Positions 4,121 to 15,352 of a DNA stretch of 64,000 bases are shown here, one piece after another. The translations under genes and the position numbers were made by a program. The notes under the pieces are model-generated. The model was not told the origin of the DNA. It ran no database searches and saw nothing but the letters and a program-made list of their open reading frames with translations. Every line of letters begins with the position of its first letter. Within the stretch, counting starts at the first letter, position 1. The stretch comes from Christiangramia forsetii KT0803 (lineage in GTDB: Bacteria; Bacteroidota; Bacteroidia; Flavobacteriales; Flavobacteriaceae), in assembly GCF_000060345.1 (NCBI RefSeq), contig NC_008571.1:372001-436000 (forward strand). The letters run 5' to 3'.

Positions 4121-4265
4121 TCGTCATCCTGAACTTGTTTCAGGATCTCAGAAAGTTGAAGAACTTAAAATAGACCCTGACCTTTCGACTGCGCTCAAGG
4201 TGACAGCTTAGGTTGATATTTATGAAATTATCGTCATGCTGAACTCGTTTCAGCATCTCAGGGAA
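4121..4265. repeat. Three REP-like palindromes between cysN and the sulfite reductase gene
   Basis: The gap contains TCGTCATCCTGAACTTGTTT followed by CAGGATCTC (4121-4149), a second element with the core TTTCGACTGCGCTCAAGGTG (4172-4206), and TCGTCATGCTGAACTCGTTT followed by CAGCATCTC (4231-4261). Each can fold into a small hairpin. They belong to the family scattered through this window. The remaining bases from 3972 to 4305 show no gene. Confidence 0.8.
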
Positions 4266-9147: not shown

Positions 9148-9570
9148 ATGAAGATCAGCTTAAAAAGAATCAACGATAATTATCTATTTGAAACTGTAAA
9201 TGAGCGTGGCAATATTGTGCTTCTGGACAATAAATCTGATGCAGAACCAAAAGGCTCAAGCCCGATGGATCTTATTCTTCGTGGAATTGCCGGTTGTAGC
9301 AGTATAGACGTTGTTATGATTTTGAAAAAGCAACAGCATGAGCTGGAAGATCTTCAGGTAGAGGTTGAAGGCTTTCGTGAAGATGGCGCTATTCCCAATG
9401 TATTCAATAAAATTCATTTGAATTTTATTTTCAAAGGAGAAGTTCCGGCAGCTAAGGTTGAAAGGGCAGTAAAATTATCGATGGATAAATATTGTTCGGT
9501 TTCTAAAATGCTGGAAAAGGCAGCCACGATCAGTTATTCTATTGAGTTAAATTCAGAAAAGATTTTATAG
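9148..9570 (+). CDS. OsmC family protein
   Basis: Probable thiol-dependent peroxidase of the OsmC/Ohr family, 140 residues as usual. Two conserved cysteines are present: C50 in GIAGCSSIDVV and C116 in KYCSVSKM. OsmC-type proteins reduce organic hydroperoxides, but many relatives are uncharacterised and some act in sulfur metabolism. The gene stands alone between the sulfite reduction block and the methionine operon. A TAAATTTC-like sequence lies near 9115, but I do not claim it as a promoter. Confidence 0.85.
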   Translation: MKISLKRINDNYLFETVNERGNIVLLDNKSDAEPKGSSPMDLILRGIAGCSSIDVVMILKKQQHELEDLQVEVEGFREDGAIPNVFNKIHLNFIFKGEVPAAKVERAVKLSMDKYCSVSKMLEKAATISYSIELNSEKIL

Positions 9571-9586
9571 AAAAAAACTGAAATCT

Positions 9587-9618
9587 TTGTTATTGGGTAT
9601 ATTATAACTGTATATTTG
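9587..9618 (+). promoter_or_regulatory. Promoter of the methionine synthase operon
   Basis: TTG at 9587-9589, a 21-base spacer and TATATTTG at 9611-9618 match the Bacteroidota sigma-ABfr consensus. The spacer is identical in length to those at 755 and 31109. Transcription would start about 25 bases ahead of the SAM riboswitch. Confidence 0.75.
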
Positions 9619-9647
9619 TCTTGTAAGTTCATTGTTTACTAACATTC

Positions 9648-9750
9648 GTTATCAAGAAAGGTTGAGGGATTAGACCCTGTGAAACCTTGGCAACCCTCCT
9701 GTAATGGGAGAAGGTGCTACGTTCTACCACGCCAGTCGTGGATAGATAAC
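9648..9750 (+). ncRNA. SAM-I (S-box) riboswitch
   Basis: The aptamer core is recognisable: GTTATCAAGAAAGGTTGAGG, then GGATTAGACCCTGTGAAACC, TTGGCAACC, a variable P3 hairpin, and AAGGTGCTACGTTCTACC, closing with GATAGATAAC. P1 pairs GTTATC (9648-9653) with GATAAC (9745-9750). It binds S-adenosylmethionine and turns down methionine synthesis genes. Downstream, GATAACG at 9780-9786 could compete for the same 5' strand (CGTTATC, 9647-9653). It leads into a 7-base-pair hairpin (9786-9802) that abuts the metH start codon. AAGAC/GTCTT before a T run (9753-9779) is only a weak terminator. Confidence 0.93.
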
Positions 9751-9802
9751 TCAAGACTTCATTTTTCGTCTTCTTTTTTGATAACGTTTTATTTTATAAA
9801 AC

Positions 9803-10849
9803 ATGTCAAAAATTGAAGAGTTACTCTCACAAAAAATATTAATACTAGACGGTGCCATGGGGACCATGCTTCAGGAATATAAATTTTCTGAAGAGGATTT
9901 TCGTGGAAAACGTTTTGCAGACTGGCCGGTTTCCCTTCAGGGTAATAATGACCTTTTGTCTATTACCCAGCCTGAAGCAATTGCGACGATACATCGAAAA
10001 TATTTTGATGCCGGGGCAGATATTGTGGAAACTAATACCTTCTCTGGAACCACCATCGCCATGGCCGATTATAAGATGGAGGATCTGGTTTATGAACTCA
10101 ATTATGAGTCGGCCAGAATTGCCAAAAAGGTAGCGGAAGAAGTTACTGCTGAAAACCCTTCAAAACCACGATTTGTAGCCGGAGCAATTGGTCCTACCAA
10201 CAAAACGGCAAGTATGAGCCCAGATGTAAACGATCCAGGGTATCGGGCGATTTCATTTGATGAACTTAGAAAGGCCTATAAACAACAGGCAAAAGCATTG
10301 ATTGATGGCGGAGCCGATATTTTACTGGTGGAAACCGTTTTTGATACCCTGAACGCAAAAGCAGCACTTTTCGCCATAGATGAACTTAAAGAAGAATTAG
10401 GGATTACTATTCCTGTTATGATCAGTGGTACAATTACCGATGCTTCGGGAAGAACACTTTCCGGCCAGACTGCGGAAGCTTTTTTAATTTCTGTTTCACA
10501 TATTCCATTGTTGAGCATTGGATTTAATTGTGCATTGGGAGCCAAGCAACTTACACCGCACCTTGAAGTTTTAAACCGATATGCGAATTCGGGAGTTTCG
10601 GCTTATCCAAATGCAGGTTTGCCAAATGCTTTTGGAGAATACGATCAGGATGCAGCGGAAATGGCTTCCCAGATCGAAGAATATCTCGAAAAAAGCCTGG
10701 TGAATATTCTTGGCGGTTGCTGCGGAACCACTCCCAAACATATTAAAGCAATTGCTGAAGTAGCTAAAAACTACAAGCCTCGTGAAATTAATCTTCAAGA
10801 TCATGCTGAACTTGTTTCAGCATCTCAACAATCTGATCATAAAATTTAA
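9803..10849 (+). CDS. metH: Methionine synthase, homocysteine-binding part (split MetH, N-terminal)
   Basis: Homocysteine S-methyltransferase domain of cobalamin-dependent methionine synthase, 348 residues. [13 protein letters not shown] at the N terminus and the zinc ligands in [10 protein letters not shown] near residue 307 are diagnostic. Here MetH is divided into two genes; the remaining domains are encoded from 10897. The last 18 residues ([18 protein letters not shown]) lie beyond the conserved domain. They are encoded by a REP-like palindrome at 10799-10828, so the original C terminus has probably been extended by a repeat insertion. Expression is under the SAM-I riboswitch immediately upstream. 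Confidence 0.93.
10799..10828. repeat. REP-like palindrome inside the metH coding end
   Basis: TCATGCTGAACTTGTTTCAG followed by CATCTC is the same repeat family as at 4231 and 47985. Read in frame it gives HAELVSAS, the usual translation of this repeat. It lies within the last codons of the upstream metH gene. Confidence 0.85.
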
Positions 10850-10896
10850 AGGAAAGAGTCCCTGAAATAAATGCAGGCTGACGAAAAATATATGAT

Positions 10897-13800
10897 ATGA
10901 GTACAGCAAGTACAAATTCGATAAATAAAACTAACCAGTCCCCATCGGGGAGGCCGGGAGGGGCCAGACCGTTAAAATTATCGGGACTGGAACCACTGGT
11001 GATCACACCGGAGAGTAATTTTATAAATGTTGGGGAACGAACCAATGTGGCTGGTTCTAAAAAATTCCTTCGGCTTATTAAAGAAGAAAAATTTGATGAA
11101 GCACTGGCTGTCGCCCGGGAACAGGTGGATAACGGGGCACAGATCATTGATATCAATATGGACGATGGCCTCATTGAGGGGAAGGAAGCTATGGTGAAAT
11201 TCCTGAATCTGGTCGTAGCTGAACCTGATATTGCCCGTGTCCCTATTATGATAGATAGCTCAAAGTGGGAAATTATTGAGGCCGGCTTGCAGGTGGTACA
11301 GGGAAAGTGTGTAGTGAATTCGATTAGCCTCAAAGAAGGTGAGGAAGAATTTATTACCCACGCTAAGAAGATCAAGCGTTATGGTGCAGCTGTAATTGTA
11401 ATGGCTTTTGATGAGGTTGGACAGGCTGATAATTATGAACGCCGAATTGAAATTGCCAAACGCTCTTATGATATATTGGTGAATAAAGTAAACTTTCCGC
11501 CGGAAGACATTATTTTCGATCTGAATATATTTCCAGTGGGAACCGGGATGGATGAGCATAGAAGAAATGCGATCGATTTTATTGAAGGAACCCGATGGGT
11601 AAAAGAAAACCTTGCACATTGCAGCGTGAGTGGTGGGGTAAGCAATGTTTCCTTTTCTTTCCGCGGAAACAATCCTGTTCGTGAAGCAATGCATTCTGTT
11701 TTTCTGTATCACGCGATAAAAGCAGGAATGAATATAGGTATTGTAAACCCTTCCATGCTGGAAGTTTATGATGAGATCCCCAAAGATCTGCTGGAACATG
11801 TGGAAGATGTGATCTTTGATAGACGAGATGATGCCACGGAAAGACTGCTGAATTTTGCCGAAAATGTAGTCGGAAGAAAAAAGGAAAACAAAGTAGATCT
11901 TTCCTGGAGGGAAAAACCCCTTCAGGACAGGATTACCCATGCGTTGGTGAAAGGAATTGACGCCTATATTTTAGAAGATATTGAACAGGCCAGGTTGGAA
12001 GCTGAGAGGCCCCTGGACGTTATCGAAGGCCCGTTGATGATTGGGATGAATGTGGTAGGCGATCTCTTTGGAAGCGGAAAAATGTTCCTTCCGCAAGTGG
12101 TGAAGTCGGCGCGGGTTATGAAAAAGGCGGTAGCTTATTTATTACCTTATATAGAAGAGGCAAAAAAGGCCCCCCAACCCCCAAAAGGGGAGCAGTATTG
12201 GAAAACTGCCAATCCGGCGTTATACAATAAAACGAAAGAATTCGCCCGAAAAATGCGCTACGAAAAATCTACAAAAGCAGAGACTAAATTATGGGAGGCT
12301 TTTAGCGGAAAAAAGCTTGAAGGATTTAAATTTAGGAGGCAACATATTATAGGAAGCTATATTGCAGATTTCGTTTGTCTAAAAGAAAAATTGGTAATAG
12401 AGGTAGATGGTTTAATACATCAACTGCCAGATCATAAATTGAGTGATGAAGCACGGACAGCTTGGTTAAAGGAGCAGGGATTCAGAGTGGTCAGATTTAC
12501 AAATAGCCAGGTTCTCGAAGATTTAGATTCCGTATTGGATAAAACTTTGAGTGCTTTAAAAAAAGCACCCCCTTCGGGGGCGGGGGGGGCTGGAAAAGTT
12601 CTGATGGCAACCGTAAAGGGTGACGTACATGATATTGGTAAAAATATCGTGGCGGTAGTTCTCGGATGCAATAATTATGAGATCATTGATTTAGGAGTAA
12701 TGGTTCCCCCGGAAAAGATCATTGAAACTGCAAAAGCTGAAAATGTAGATGTAATTGGACTTAGCGGATTAATTACGCCATCGCTGGATGAAATGGTTTT
12801 TCTGGCTAAGGAAATGCAGCGACAAAATTTTGAGGTTCCTTTATTGATTGGGGGTGCTACCACTTCTAAAGCTCATACTGCCGTTAAGATAGATCCTCAA
12901 TATCATTTCGCGGTTGCGCATGTGAATGATGCTTCGCGCGCTGTGACTGTTGTGGGGCAGTTATTAAAGGAAAGTACCCGCGAAAAATATAAAAGCGATC
13001 TCAAGATTGAATATGATAAATTCCGACTGAATTTTAAGAAACGAAGTAAAGTAAAAAGCTATTTAAAACTACCGGAAGCACGACGTAATAAATTTAAGAT
13101 CAACTGGGAATCTACGAATATCACCAAACCGAATCAATTGGGAACCCAGATAATTGAAGATTTTGACCTAGAGAAACTGGAAGAATATATAGACTGGTCA
13201 CCGTTTTTTAGAAGCTGGGATTTGCATGGCCGTTATCCCGATATTCTGAAAGACGAAAAAGTAGGTGAGCAGGCGCAAAGCTTATTTGACGATGCAAAAG
13301 CCTTACTGGAAAGGATTTTCAAAGAAAAATTGTTGAAGGCTAAAGCGACCTTCGGTCTTTTTGAAGCTAATACTATAAATAACGATGATATAGAAGTGAG
13401 CTACGAAGAAGCTTCTGAAAAGAAAAAGATTGTCTTTAGAACACTTCGGCAGCAATTAAAGAAGTATGCCGAAAAGCCAAATTTCGCGCTTTCAGATTTT
13501 ATCGCTCCAAAAGAAAGCGGAATTCAGGATTATATGGGTTGTTTTTGCGTCACTACCGGTTTTGGAACTGCTGAACTTGCCGCAGAATTTGAAAAAGACC
13601 TTGATGATTATAATTCTATTATGATAAAGGCGCTGGCCGATCGCTTAGCGGAGGCTTTTGCGGAATATCTGCATAAAGAAGTGAGAACAAAGCATTGGGG
13701 GTATGCTTCTGATGAAAATTTGAGCAATGAAGAGTTAATAAAGGAATCGTATAAAGGGATTCGTCCGGCACCGGGTTATCCCGCCTGTCCCGATCATTTG

Positions 13801-14037
13801 GAGAAATTGACGATTTGGGAACTTTTAAAAGTTGATGAAAAAATAGGAGTGGAACTTACCGAAAGTCTGGCGATGTGGCCGGCGGCAAGTGTGAGCGGAT
13901 ATTATTTTGCGAATCCTGAAGCGAGGTATTTTGGTCTTGGAAAAATAAAAGAAGACCAGGTAAAAGATTTTGCTGAAAGAAAAGGAATTGAATATAAAAA
14001 AGCCGAGAAATGGCTGAATCCGAATATCGCGGATTAG
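10897..14037 (+). CDS. metH: Methionine synthase, folate/B12/activation part (split MetH) with inserted DUF559 domain
   Basis: Transfers the methyl group of methyltetrahydrofolate through cobalamin to homocysteine bound by the upstream gene product. Domains in order: pterin-binding (about 30-300), cobalamin cap helices (about 325-423), an inserted DUF559 nuclease-like domain (about 425-565), the cobalamin Rossmann domain with GDVHDIGKN (H578 as lower cobalt ligand, 567-715), and the activation domain (about 740-1046, with [12 protein letters not shown]). The protein is 1046 residues; without the insert it would be about 905, the size expected from E. coli MetH. The insert falls in the linker before [16 protein letters not shown] and keeps the frame. 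A second GC-rich palindrome encodes [10 protein letters not shown] near the N terminus. Confidence 0.93.
10936..10968. repeat. GC-rich palindromic repeat near the start of the second metH gene
   Basis: CAGTCCCCATCGGGGAGGCC followed by GGGAGGGGCCAG. It has the same layout as the right end of the DUF559 insert at 12566-12593: a CCCC/GGGG hairpin, then a G-rich run ending in GGGGC-CAG or GGGGCTGG. It translates in frame to [10 protein letters not shown], before the conserved MetH sequence begins. It looks like a solo copy of the repeat that flanks the insert. Confidence 0.7.
12168..12593 (+). mobile_element. In-frame DUF559 (PD-(D/E)XK-like) insert flanked by GC-rich inverted repeats
   Basis: About 426 bases inside metH, encoding residues 424-566. 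The core ([20 protein letters not shown] to [11 protein letters not shown]) is a complete DUF559 domain with [12 protein letters not shown]491, E502 and D504 in the order of a Vsr-like endonuclease active site. The left end, GCCCCCCAACCCCC-AAAA-GGGGAGC (12169-12192), matches the reverse complement of the right end, GCACCCCCTTCGGGGGCGGG followed by GGGGGC (12565-12590). The ends therefore form imperfect terminal inverted repeats. There are no intein splicing motifs and no stop, so the domain stays in the protein. Confidence 0.75.
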
Positions 14038-14113
14038 TATAGAGTATTGAGATGTGAGTATTTAGATTTTCGCGGAATGAACACTTTAACTCTAAAGAAA
14101 TATAAGGAGTTCA

Positions 14114-14190
14114 CGTCAAACTGAATTTATTTCAGAATCTATAAAGAAGCTGAGCTTTCGACTGCGCTCAAGGTGACAGTTTCAGGTTGA
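14114..14190. repeat. REP-like palindrome pair after metH
   Basis: CGTCAAACTGAATTTATTTC followed by AGAATCT (14114-14140) and GCTGAGCTTTCGACTGCGCT followed by CAAGGTGACAG (14149-14179). These lie in the 361-base gap between metH and metF, whose second half holds the structured RNA element. No gene is visible in the gap. Confidence 0.7.
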
Positions 14191-14273
14191 CGAAATATAG
14201 AATTCTGAAAGCTCAGAATTAGAGATAAATAAAAAGAAATAGGCTTATCGCTGAAGACTGATAAAAAAATAAT

Positions 14274-14374
14274 GCGTTAGGGATTGCAGCGGTATCCTTT
14301 TACTGTTATGCTGAGCTTGTGAAAGTATGACAGTAAAAGATATAGCGTAAAGCCCGGCCTAAAAGGCAACGCCC
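14274..14374 (+). ncRNA. Structured RNA element upstream of metF (Flavo-1-like)
   Basis: A highly patterned leader with GCGTTAGGGATTGCAGCGGT near its start and AGATATAGCGTAAAGCCCGG toward its end. GCGTT (14274-14278) can pair with AACGC (14368-14372). GGAT pairs with ATCC, and CTTTTACTGT (14297-14306) pairs with ACAGTAAAAG (14330-14339). I recall this sequence pattern as common before genes in Flavobacteriia and tentatively equate it with the Flavo-1 motif; I could not check the covariance model. The tip of the long hairpin is itself a REP-like sequence (ATGCTGAGCTTGTGAAAGTA). It ends 25 bases before the metF start. Confidence 0.55.
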
Positions 14375-14398
14375 AAAAACAACAAAAAGTTTAGTTTA

Positions 14399-15352
14399 AT
14401 GAAAGTTACCGAACATATTGAAAAAGCAAATGGGAAAACATTGTTTTCGTTTGAAATAATTCCGCCGAAGAAAGGGAAGAATATTCAGGAACTCTATGAT
14501 AATATAGATCCGCTAATGGATTTTAAACCTCCGTTTATTGATGTGACGACTTCACGGGAGGAACATTTGTATGTAGATCGCGACGGACTTTTTGATAGAA
14601 AAATCACTCGTATGCGGCCGGGAACTGTTGGGATTTGTGCGGCGATCAAACATAAATACAATGTAGATACGGTGCCGCATGTTCTTTGTGGCGGATTTTC
14701 GAGGGAAGAAACAGAATATTTGCTGGTAGACTGTCATTATTTGGGAATTGAAAATGTAATGGCCCTGCGTGGAGATGCGATGAGCCACCAAAGATATTTT
14801 GAGCCTTCTAATGGAGGTCATCCGTATGCCTGCGATTTGGTAAAGCAAATTACCAACCTGAATAAAGGAAAATATTTGCATGATGTGATAGAAGCAGATG
14901 ATTTGGCCGATTTCTGCATTGGTGTTGCCGGTTATCCCGAAAAGCATATTGAAGCTCCTTCCCTAAATTCAGATCTTAAAAGATTGAAGGAGAAAGTAGA
15001 CGCAGGAGCAGATTATGTTGTTACCCAGATGTTCTTTGATAATTCTAAATATTTTGAATTTGTTGAGGAGGCTAAAAAAGCGGGAATTAATGTGCCTATT
15101 ATTCCGGGAATTAAACCCATTGCGATTTCCAGACATTTGCAGTTGTTGCCACAGGTTTTTAAGATCGACCTTCCGGAATCCCTGATCTTAGAAGTTGAAA
15201 AATGTAAAACCAATAAAGAAGTAAGGCAGGTGGGAGTTGAATGGTGTATTCAACAATCTAAAGAATTAATGGAAGGCGGCGCTCCGGTTCTACACTTTTA
15301 TTCTATGGGAAAAAGCAGCAATATTGAGCAAATAGCCAACGCGGTATTTTAA
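14399..15352 (+). CDS. metF: Methylenetetrahydrofolate reductase MetF
   Basis: Reduces 5,10-methylenetetrahydrofolate to 5-methyltetrahydrofolate, the methyl donor for the MetH genes just upstream. The protein is a flavin TIM barrel of 317 residues, the usual bacterial length. Family signatures are FSFEIIPPKKG at residue 16, the LRGD motif in ENVMALRGDAM and DYVVTQMFFDN. It lies 361 bases after metH, with its own structured leader, so it may be transcribed separately from the SAM-controlled operon. Confidence 0.95.
   Translation: MKVTEHIEKANGKTLFSFEIIPPKKGKNIQELYDNIDPLMDFKPPFIDVTTSREEHLYVDRDGLFDRKITRMRPGTVGICAAIKHKYNVDTVPHVLCGGFSREETEYLLVDCHYLGIENVMALRGDAMSHQRYFEPSNGGHPYACDLVKQITNLNKGKYLHDVIEADDLADFCIGVAGYPEKHIEAPSLNSDLKRLKEKVDAGADYVVTQMFFDNSKYFEFVEEAKKAGINVPIIPGIKPIAISRHLQLLPQVFKIDLPESLILEVEKCKTNKEVRQVGVEWCIQQSKELMEGGAPVLHFYSMGKSSNIEQIANAVF

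Follow-up and report, generated by a model that had tools for sequence, protein, structure and literature searches.

To our knowledge, selfish DNA within coding genes takes one of two forms, either introns and inteins that are spliced out or short palindromes that carry no gene. Inteins with homing endonucleases place a nuclease domain in frame in conserved genes, of which both empty and filled alleles occur. Palindromes without genes lie in frame in coding genes, and the Rickettsia palindromic elements (RPE) and other in-frame repetitive extragenic palindromes (REPs) are short palindromes of this type in unrelated protein genes, according to the excerpted text of PMC3733652. VsrA of Caulobacter is a DUF559 protein and a predicted Vsr-like nuclease, and the DNA damage response of a methylase mutant depends on it (PMC12907096, excerpted text). 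Here, we report a DUF559 domain bounded by inverted repeats and located in frame in the methionine synthase gene metH of Christiangramia forsetii KT0803, within a 64,000-nucleotide stretch analyzed as a whole (the window; contig NC_008571.1, positions 372,001 to 436,000), and compare it with its relatives in the phylum. A preliminary description, made from the window sequence alone, had interpreted this insert as a mobile element that is not spliced out. That interpretation is supported by our results, and the insert is probably a mobile element bounded by terminal repeats that persists as an unspliced, translated domain of its host protein.

Results

In-frame DUF559 insert in the MetH linker

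The Pfam domain order in the 1046-residue open reading frame (ORF) of metH was Pterin_bind, B12-binding_2, DUF559 (E 5.6e-34), B12-binding, and Met_synt_B12. The ORF thus encodes the pterin, cobalamin, and activation domains, and the insert lies between the cobalamin cap and the cobalamin-binding domain. In the alignment with human MetH, the host matches ended at residue 757 and restarted at residue 773, so that the insert site is a short linker. Both results confirmed the earlier placement of the domain in the linker between the two cobalamin domains. The earlier length of about 141 residues was also correct, whereas the ends moved from 12168-12593 to 12169-12591. Between two anchors, filled genes had 180 residues and empty genes 45, a net gain of 135 residues.

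The window DUF559 domain matched PF04480 with the D, E, and D residues of the putative active site, and D491, E502, D504, and the conserved motif were present as previously noted. Apart from DUF559 and its relative MTES_1575, Pfam detected no domain in the insert, and thus no Hint/intein splicing domain, and an Rfam scan of positions 9500-14500 at E up to 1 detected no group I or II intron around the nuclease frame, in agreement with the previously assumed lack of a splicing signal. An intein, which would have a Hint domain with splice residues at its N- and C-termini, whereas the ends here encode APQPPKGE and APPSGAGGA, and a group I or II intron were therefore ruled out. A known defence system was ruled out because there was no PADLOC match, and a phage origin because the PHROG matches were weak (best E 3.7e-6).

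Terminal repeats and their conservation as DNA

The GC-rich imperfect inverted repeats described at the insert ends were confirmed (GCCCCCCAACCCCCAAAAGGGGAGC and GCACCCCCTTCGGGGGCGGGGGGGGCT), and the unit begins and ends with such repeats. MetH of one relative (genome G238, locus L162) contains two DUF559 copies, one in the linker and one in the activation domain, with 91.4% protein identity. Their DNA similarity begins at AGCCCCCC and stops at GGGGGGGGCT, i.e., at the repeat ends, and this confinement of the similarity defines the unit. Such a sharp repeat-to-repeat boundary looks more like transposition of a repeat-bounded unit than homing. In genome G401, the activation-domain copy was present and the linker was empty. 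The two activation-site copies were nested inside the clade of linker-site copies in the insert tree (97/88).

The repeats are conserved at the DNA level. We compared fourfold degenerate third positions in codons for the same amino acid, using rows kept by the peptide pattern at the repeats. Among 12 MetH linker rows, agreement was 709/827 (0.86) in the repeats, 254/752 (0.34) in the nuclease, and 286/770 (0.37) in the host flank, with about 0.28 expected by chance from base use; when L016 and L017 were included, the values were 0.77, 0.34, and 0.37, respectively. The corresponding counts were 121/124, 27/76, and 95/370 for LeuRS (8 of 37 rows in the tRNA-synthetase cluster) and 89/109, 33/58, and 77/247 for RecG (7 of 12 rows), for which the contrast with the nuclease was less sharp. 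Synonymous sites were thus kept in the repeats but not in the nuclease or host codons, indicating that the ends are conserved as DNA. The left repeat was translated in at least two frames across copies, as some MetH copies use another frame, and so the peptide is not the conserved feature. The two consensus ends tested contained no stop codon in six frames and encoded stretches rich in Pro, Gly, and Ala, which makes them usable both as a DNA end and as a peptide linker.

The outer ends of the copies read were AGCCCC...GGGGCT or close to it. Flanks scored better as inverted repeats than displaced windows did for 64 of 100 embedded domains (median score 23, displaced mean 16.6), 19 of 26 domains at an edge, 8 of 14 lone domains, and 21 of 28 domains in a second, free-standing set.

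Empty and filled sites among relatives

The genus comparison covered 24 genomes, 22 of which had a readable MetH linker. Five linkers were filled (G000, G003, G007, G016, and G021), and the alignment with relatives that had been proposed as a check for empty sites revealed 17. All 17 empty linkers had the same length (45 residues) and near-identical sequences, without any repeat remnant. In the genus MetH tree, the filled state required five changes, three of them forced by strong branches, and a single clade of filled genes was rejected within the genus (approximately unbiased test, p 8.9e-5). Repeated gain or loss was also seen in an insert-free MetH tree of 45 rows (27 filled and 18 empty), which required seven changes, five of them forced by strong branches.

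The pattern recurred in LeuRS, which was filled in G007, G019, and G021; among the distinct unfilled loops shown, 11 had 34 residues and three were longer. The LeuRS frames of G002 (L309; 1062 residues) and G019 (L289; 1216 residues) were longer than the others and had a second break near query residue 830-850, where another insertion may be located.

Host proteins across the phylum

DUF559 was present in 188 of 397 genomes in the family search and in 222 of 395 genomes in the phylum search. Regions to be read for embedding were chosen from the best-scoring matches by open frames of at least 300 residues, so that their in-frame state is partly a product of selection. Frame lengths among the family-search matches listed were either at most 202 or at least 346 residues, with 59 of 150 in the long group when counted by eye; the phylum-search matches listed included a few frames of intermediate length (204 to 306). 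The 100 regions read consisted of 56 from the family search (57 rows; G000 and G003 were already in the set), 41 of 43 further rows from the phylum search (without G559 and G243), and three others. A scan of public genomes yielded 50 relatives, and 50 public loci brought the domain set to 150 loci.

The domain is nested in frame in many unrelated genes. The 150 loci contained 153 DUF559 domains, of which 101 lay inside a larger frame, 32 near one end, and 20 alone; in the embedded copies read, which come from this selected set, neither repeat interrupted the frame. Host ORFs grouped into 30 clusters, and 25 of 26 host representatives scanned matched a further family besides DUF559. Internal hosts were MetH and LeuRS (two sites each), MetRS, IleRS, RecG, CinA, adenine deaminase, HsdR, HsdM, Eco57I-type, type ISP, and other methyltransferase-type enzymes, M23 peptidase, UvrD-like helicases, and a methylmalonyl-CoA-mutase/MeaB fusion that is presumably IcmF-like. 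Near-end hosts were uroporphyrinogen-III synthase (HemD), coproporphyrinogen oxidase (HemF), guanylate kinase, a HisA/HisF-type protein (PF00977), histidinol dehydrogenase, a GATase_5 protein (probably PurL), N-formylglutamate amidohydrolase, and TruB. The repeats also occurred around other DUF559 domains, which the earlier description had suggested looking for. The proposed mobility gained support, but the restriction to sites between protein domains did not hold, as inserts also replaced loops within domains (the LeuRS editing domain and the MetH activation domain) and lay near protein ends.

Nine loci (L165, L175, L178, L184, L191-L193, L195, and L201) had DUF559 in frame at the N-terminus of HemD-like proteins. 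These HemD-type fusions formed a tree branch apart from the internal inserts; L192 was the one representative scanned.

Active site, selection, and kinship of the nuclease

The active-site D, E, D, and H, which we take to be the catalytic residues of DUF559, were kept in 133, 131, 132, and 132 of 133 embedded or edge domains, respectively. The median ratio of nonsynonymous to synonymous substitution rates (dN/dS) was 0.25 (117 pairs with dS of 0.05-1.5), which shows purifying selection on the nuclease. A DUF559 profile built from 36 sequences matched the PDB entries 3hrl (E 1.8e-33) and 3r3p, named ‘Mobile intron protein’ (E 4.3e-5); the latter is presumably I-Bth0305I. The match to 3r3p, together with the PF04480 match and the D/E/D residues, is in line with the previously noted relation of DUF559 to Vsr and PD-(D/E)XK nucleases.

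The domain tree was based on 146 of the 153 domains, with seven shorter than 85 residues left out, and on few columns, so that many of its forks are unsure. The host-site label required 41 changes over 34 embedded labels. Copies at the same site clustered across genera, with five changes for LeuRS against a shuffled mean of 27.3 and four for the MetH linker against 22.4. One change sufficed to separate the copies in the main housekeeping hosts (90) from the free-standing copies (46); therefore, the in-frame habit may have had one origin and then spread.

Solo and paired repeats

The solo repeat that had been placed at 10936-10968 was indeed in frame in the same gene (10937-10965), but it is a variant (CCCC-NNN-GGGG...GGGAGGGG) rather than an exact copy of the terminal repeat. 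A genome-wide search (3.8 Mb) for the hairpin-plus-G-rich-tail pattern gave three places after merging of overlapping matches, each of them in metH (the two ends and the solo repeat); a reversed-pattern control gave 0, and chance repeats were thereby ruled out. The variant was also found elsewhere in the genus (L323 and L331), and solo repeats were located at the same MetH N-terminal place in G003 (L058) and G418 (L107).

Repeats and nuclease co-occurred in the genus. At least two hairpin places outside DUF559 inserts were found in 5 of 6 genomes with this nuclease type and in 2 of 18 genomes without it (Fisher p 0.0027), a count for which places were merged by hand and which keeps the G022 palindromes and one G002 place left out of a parallel count. 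The two nuclease-free exceptions were G002, whose hairpins are of the same make, and G022, whose palindromes seem unrelated. Some hairpins were inverted pairs of AGCCCC...GGGGCT (or close) with a short spacer in the place of the nuclease. In-frame hairpins were located in a class I tRNA synthetase (probably IleRS, judging from place and sequence), rhomboid proteins, a glycosyltransferase, an NAD-binding sirohaem-type protein, the N-termini of MetH, and the MetH activation loop of L163 and L168.

The G022 sequence is a 28-base perfect palindrome, CCCCTCCGGGGGGTACCCCCCGGAGGGG, found at C1:219816, 1491150, and 2303028, and is apparently unrelated to the DUF559 repeats.

Features of the metH region

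The features of the region are summarized in Table 1. MetH is split over two genes, as the homocysteine half is encoded by ORF 9803-10849 and the remainder by ORF 10897-14037. The latter was the single match to the MetH protein in the 3.8 Mb genome, in which a search for MetE (PF01717) found none. A Flavo-1 RNA (RF01705, E 1.4e-9) is located downstream of metH at 14271-14363. A second palindromic repeat, GCTGAACTNGTTTCAGC, had 24 copies in the genome (control 0), including those at window positions 4238-4254 and 10805-10821. The upstream met ORF contains the copy at 10805 in frame at its C-terminal end (HAELVSAS), and this repeat may belong to the CGTC-tagged repeats reported for this group.

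Table 1 Features of the metH region in window coordinates.
Feature	Position	Strand	Basis
metH, C-terminal part of methionine synthase (1046 aa), carrying the insert	10897..14037	+	ORF and Pfam
In-frame element, 423 nt = 141 codons, GCC to GCT	12169..12591	+	Ends from two-copy alignment in one relative
Left terminal inverted repeat GCCCCCCAACCCCCAAAAGGGGAGC, translated APQPPKGE	12169..12193	+	
Right terminal inverted repeat GCACCCCCTTCGGGGGCGGGGGGGGCT, translated APPSGAGGA	12565..12591	+	
DUF559 nuclease domain, MetH residues 445-554; catalytic candidates D491, E502, D504, H508	12229..12558	+	
Solo repeat AGTCCCCATCGGGGAGGCCGGGAGGGGCC, in frame, near the MetH N-terminus	10937..10965	+	
Neighbouring ORF, homocysteine S-methyltransferase half of MetH	9803..10849	+	
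SAM riboswitch, upstream of both met genes	9646..9752	+	Rfam

Discussion

The unit is built from two terminal inverted repeats of hairpin type and a single DUF559 frame that is read through from the host. Insertions into coding sequence would survive only where the frame is kept and a protein loop tolerates the domain. The element would then share the expression of the host gene. Most frameshifts or ragged losses would break a gene that the cell needs, so that most broken copies would disappear together with their hosts and the nuclease frame would stay open. Hairpin ends and target DNA are probably both substrates of the nuclease, which would in this way move the unit and its short derivatives; the solo repeats and the short repeat-spacer-repeat units would be such derivatives, either moved by this enzyme or left behind by it. 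That DUF559 is what cuts the repeats or the target and powers the movement is our inference, as is the persistence of the insert in the protein. The balance tilts slightly toward an unnamed class of element, whose normal form would be an unspliced translated nuclease domain, whose repeats would serve both as DNA ends and as linkers, and whose DUF559 would move the element and the solo and paired palindromes. Contrary to the outcome that the preliminary description had named as fatal to it, not all relatives were filled, empty sites were found, and the repeats recurred elsewhere.

Several observations weigh against a repeat-bounded element moved by its own nuclease. We saw no movement event, and found no biochemistry for nested DUF559 proteins. 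The jump in L162 is old rather than recent, as its two copies have diverged at synonymous sites (dS 1.5, dN 0.05), and both were kept. No clear target-site duplication, for which the preliminary description had proposed to look, was found, and short stretches of host linker were missing in filled genes. As inverted repeats, the flanks scored no better than displaced controls for 36 of 100 embedded, 7 of 26 edge, 6 of 14 lone, and 7 of 28 free-standing domains, and the repeats alone folded no better than shuffled sequence (z 0.09, -1.69, 0.02, -1.40, and -0.59). In L016 and L017 the repeats were decayed, yet dN/dS was still low (0.134). Catalytic residues varied in a few copies: L016 lacks the catalytic E, L191 has K at this position, and L013 has E for the second D. 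Seven hairpin places were found in G002, which contains no embedded nuclease of this type, and the C. forsetii genome has a single solo repeat. Extra hairpin places in the genus numbered 26 in the six genomes with the nuclease and 19 in the remaining ones (6 being G022 sequences), which amounts to an association by genome and not a monopoly. A different in-frame palindrome, of the CTGAAC..GTTTCAG type, was located in the LeuRS editing-domain loop of L305 (G003) and L306 (G012); this loop therefore seems to be a general hot spot for in-frame palindromes.

We weighed other explanations against this background. An unspliced homing endonuclease would cut the empty allele and be copied via flanking homology, the repeats marking its ends and jumps to new sites being rare accidents. 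The clustering of inserts at one site across genera, the patchy presence of filled MetH genes, and the kinship to the mobile-intron nuclease 3r3p fit this account. The preliminary description had also seen a likeness to homing; empty and filled alleles at one site bear this out, but a co-conversion tract was not seen, as identities in 120-base windows on either side of the MetH site were 0.84/0.79 for filled-filled and 0.83/0.81 for filled-empty pairs. This result also counts against our own reading, although the comparison is a weak one, as an old tract might escape notice in flanks that are about 20% diverged. Simple homing would not be expected to give conserved repeat DNA, or solo or paired repeats away from DUF559 inserts. 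We regard homing as the whole explanation as possible but rather doubtful; as a route of spread between strains, homing into empty alleles is a serious alternative. It is unlikely that another enzyme, such as a tyrosine or other transposase, moves the element and the solo repeats with DUF559 as cargo or a maintenance function. REPs of other kinds are thought to be moved by REP-associated tyrosine transposases (RAYTs; PMC3733652, excerpted text), and the hairpins of G002 occur without this nuclease type. However, extra hairpins accompany the nuclease in the genus, DUF559 is the sole domain in the window unit with an active site kept across copies, and 21 of 28 free-standing DUF559 genes are also flanked by inverted hairpins.

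A domesticated accessory domain, inherited vertically, frequently lost, and useful to the cell from within housekeeping proteins, would account for purifying selection over long times and for the site-specific clusters, and the changes on the trees cannot separate gain from loss. This account has to face unrelated hosts, two copies in one MetH, the near-identical empty linkers of the genus without remnants, repeats conserved at synonymous sites, and no match to PADLOC defence families, and we consider it improbable. Least probable of all, and very much so, is removal of the insert after all, through protein cleavage, translational bypass, or RNA processing. In its favor, the GC-rich repeats might stall or fold, and several hosts are housekeeping enzymes. 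Against it, the embedded copies, selected for long frames, have an open frame across both repeats, and neither a Hint/intein domain by Pfam nor an intron by Rfam accompanies the window copy. A conserved peptide signal is also hard to square with a left repeat whose reading frame differs between copies (at least two frames).

If the reading as an unspliced mobile element is true, selfish DNA would be able to inhabit proteins in a new manner, with a nuclease-bearing element persisting in the frames of LeuRS, IleRS, MetRS, MetH, and RecG in members of a whole phylum. It would provide a testable source of new protein domains and linkers, and for one class of palindromic repeats it would supply a candidate enzyme. 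It may also account for the DUF559 fusions seen in genome annotations, and the inserts mark natural sites where a domain of about 140 residues fits inside housekeeping enzymes.

A literature search for work tying DUF559 to methionine synthase, palindromes, or in-frame insertion found none, with most subscription journals and bioRxiv preprints outside its coverage. Searches on in-frame palindromes, unspliced homing nucleases, and tRNA-synthetase insertions found no title or abstract start describing such an element, and an article on phage homing nucleases (PMC10448857) contained nothing on DUF559 in the part consulted. VsrA, the DUF559 protein of Caulobacter, differs from the nested domains in being a separate gene with a proposed role in mismatch repair; the excerpted account mentions no insertion into genes, and the stem ‘palindrom’ occurs 0 times in its main text (PMC12907096).

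Among described elements, the RPE resemble the present one in their in-frame palindromes, and RPE-type targets also include tRNA synthetases, TruB, and repair genes, whereas the excerpted account describes no nuclease frame for RPE (PMC3733652). Here, a nuclease frame lies between the repeats and within the host frame, and in place of the Rickettsia-type lack of coding capacity the element carries a DUF559 domain under purifying selection. REPtrons, in which a RAYT gene is flanked by inverted palindromes with dispersed solo repeats, share this layout of nuclease and repeats (PMC3733652, excerpted text). The window unit, in contrast, contains a PD-(D/E)XK/Vsr-like DUF559 and no HUH tyrosine transposase, such units nest in genes, and the outer ends are AGCCCC...GGGGCT or close instead of a GTAG or CGTC tetranucleotide tag. 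As in homing endonuclease elements, empty and filled alleles occur at one conserved site (5 filled, 17 empty). The Vsr-like mobile-intron endonuclease 3r3p is a relative in sequence and is named for an intron, but no intron was found here. Inteins likewise have empty and filled alleles; the present insert differs in that no splicing domain was found and in its conserved terminal repeats at the DNA level. Inteins, introns, REPtrons, and Rickettsia-type elements each share some features with the present element and differ from it in at least one defining feature tested.

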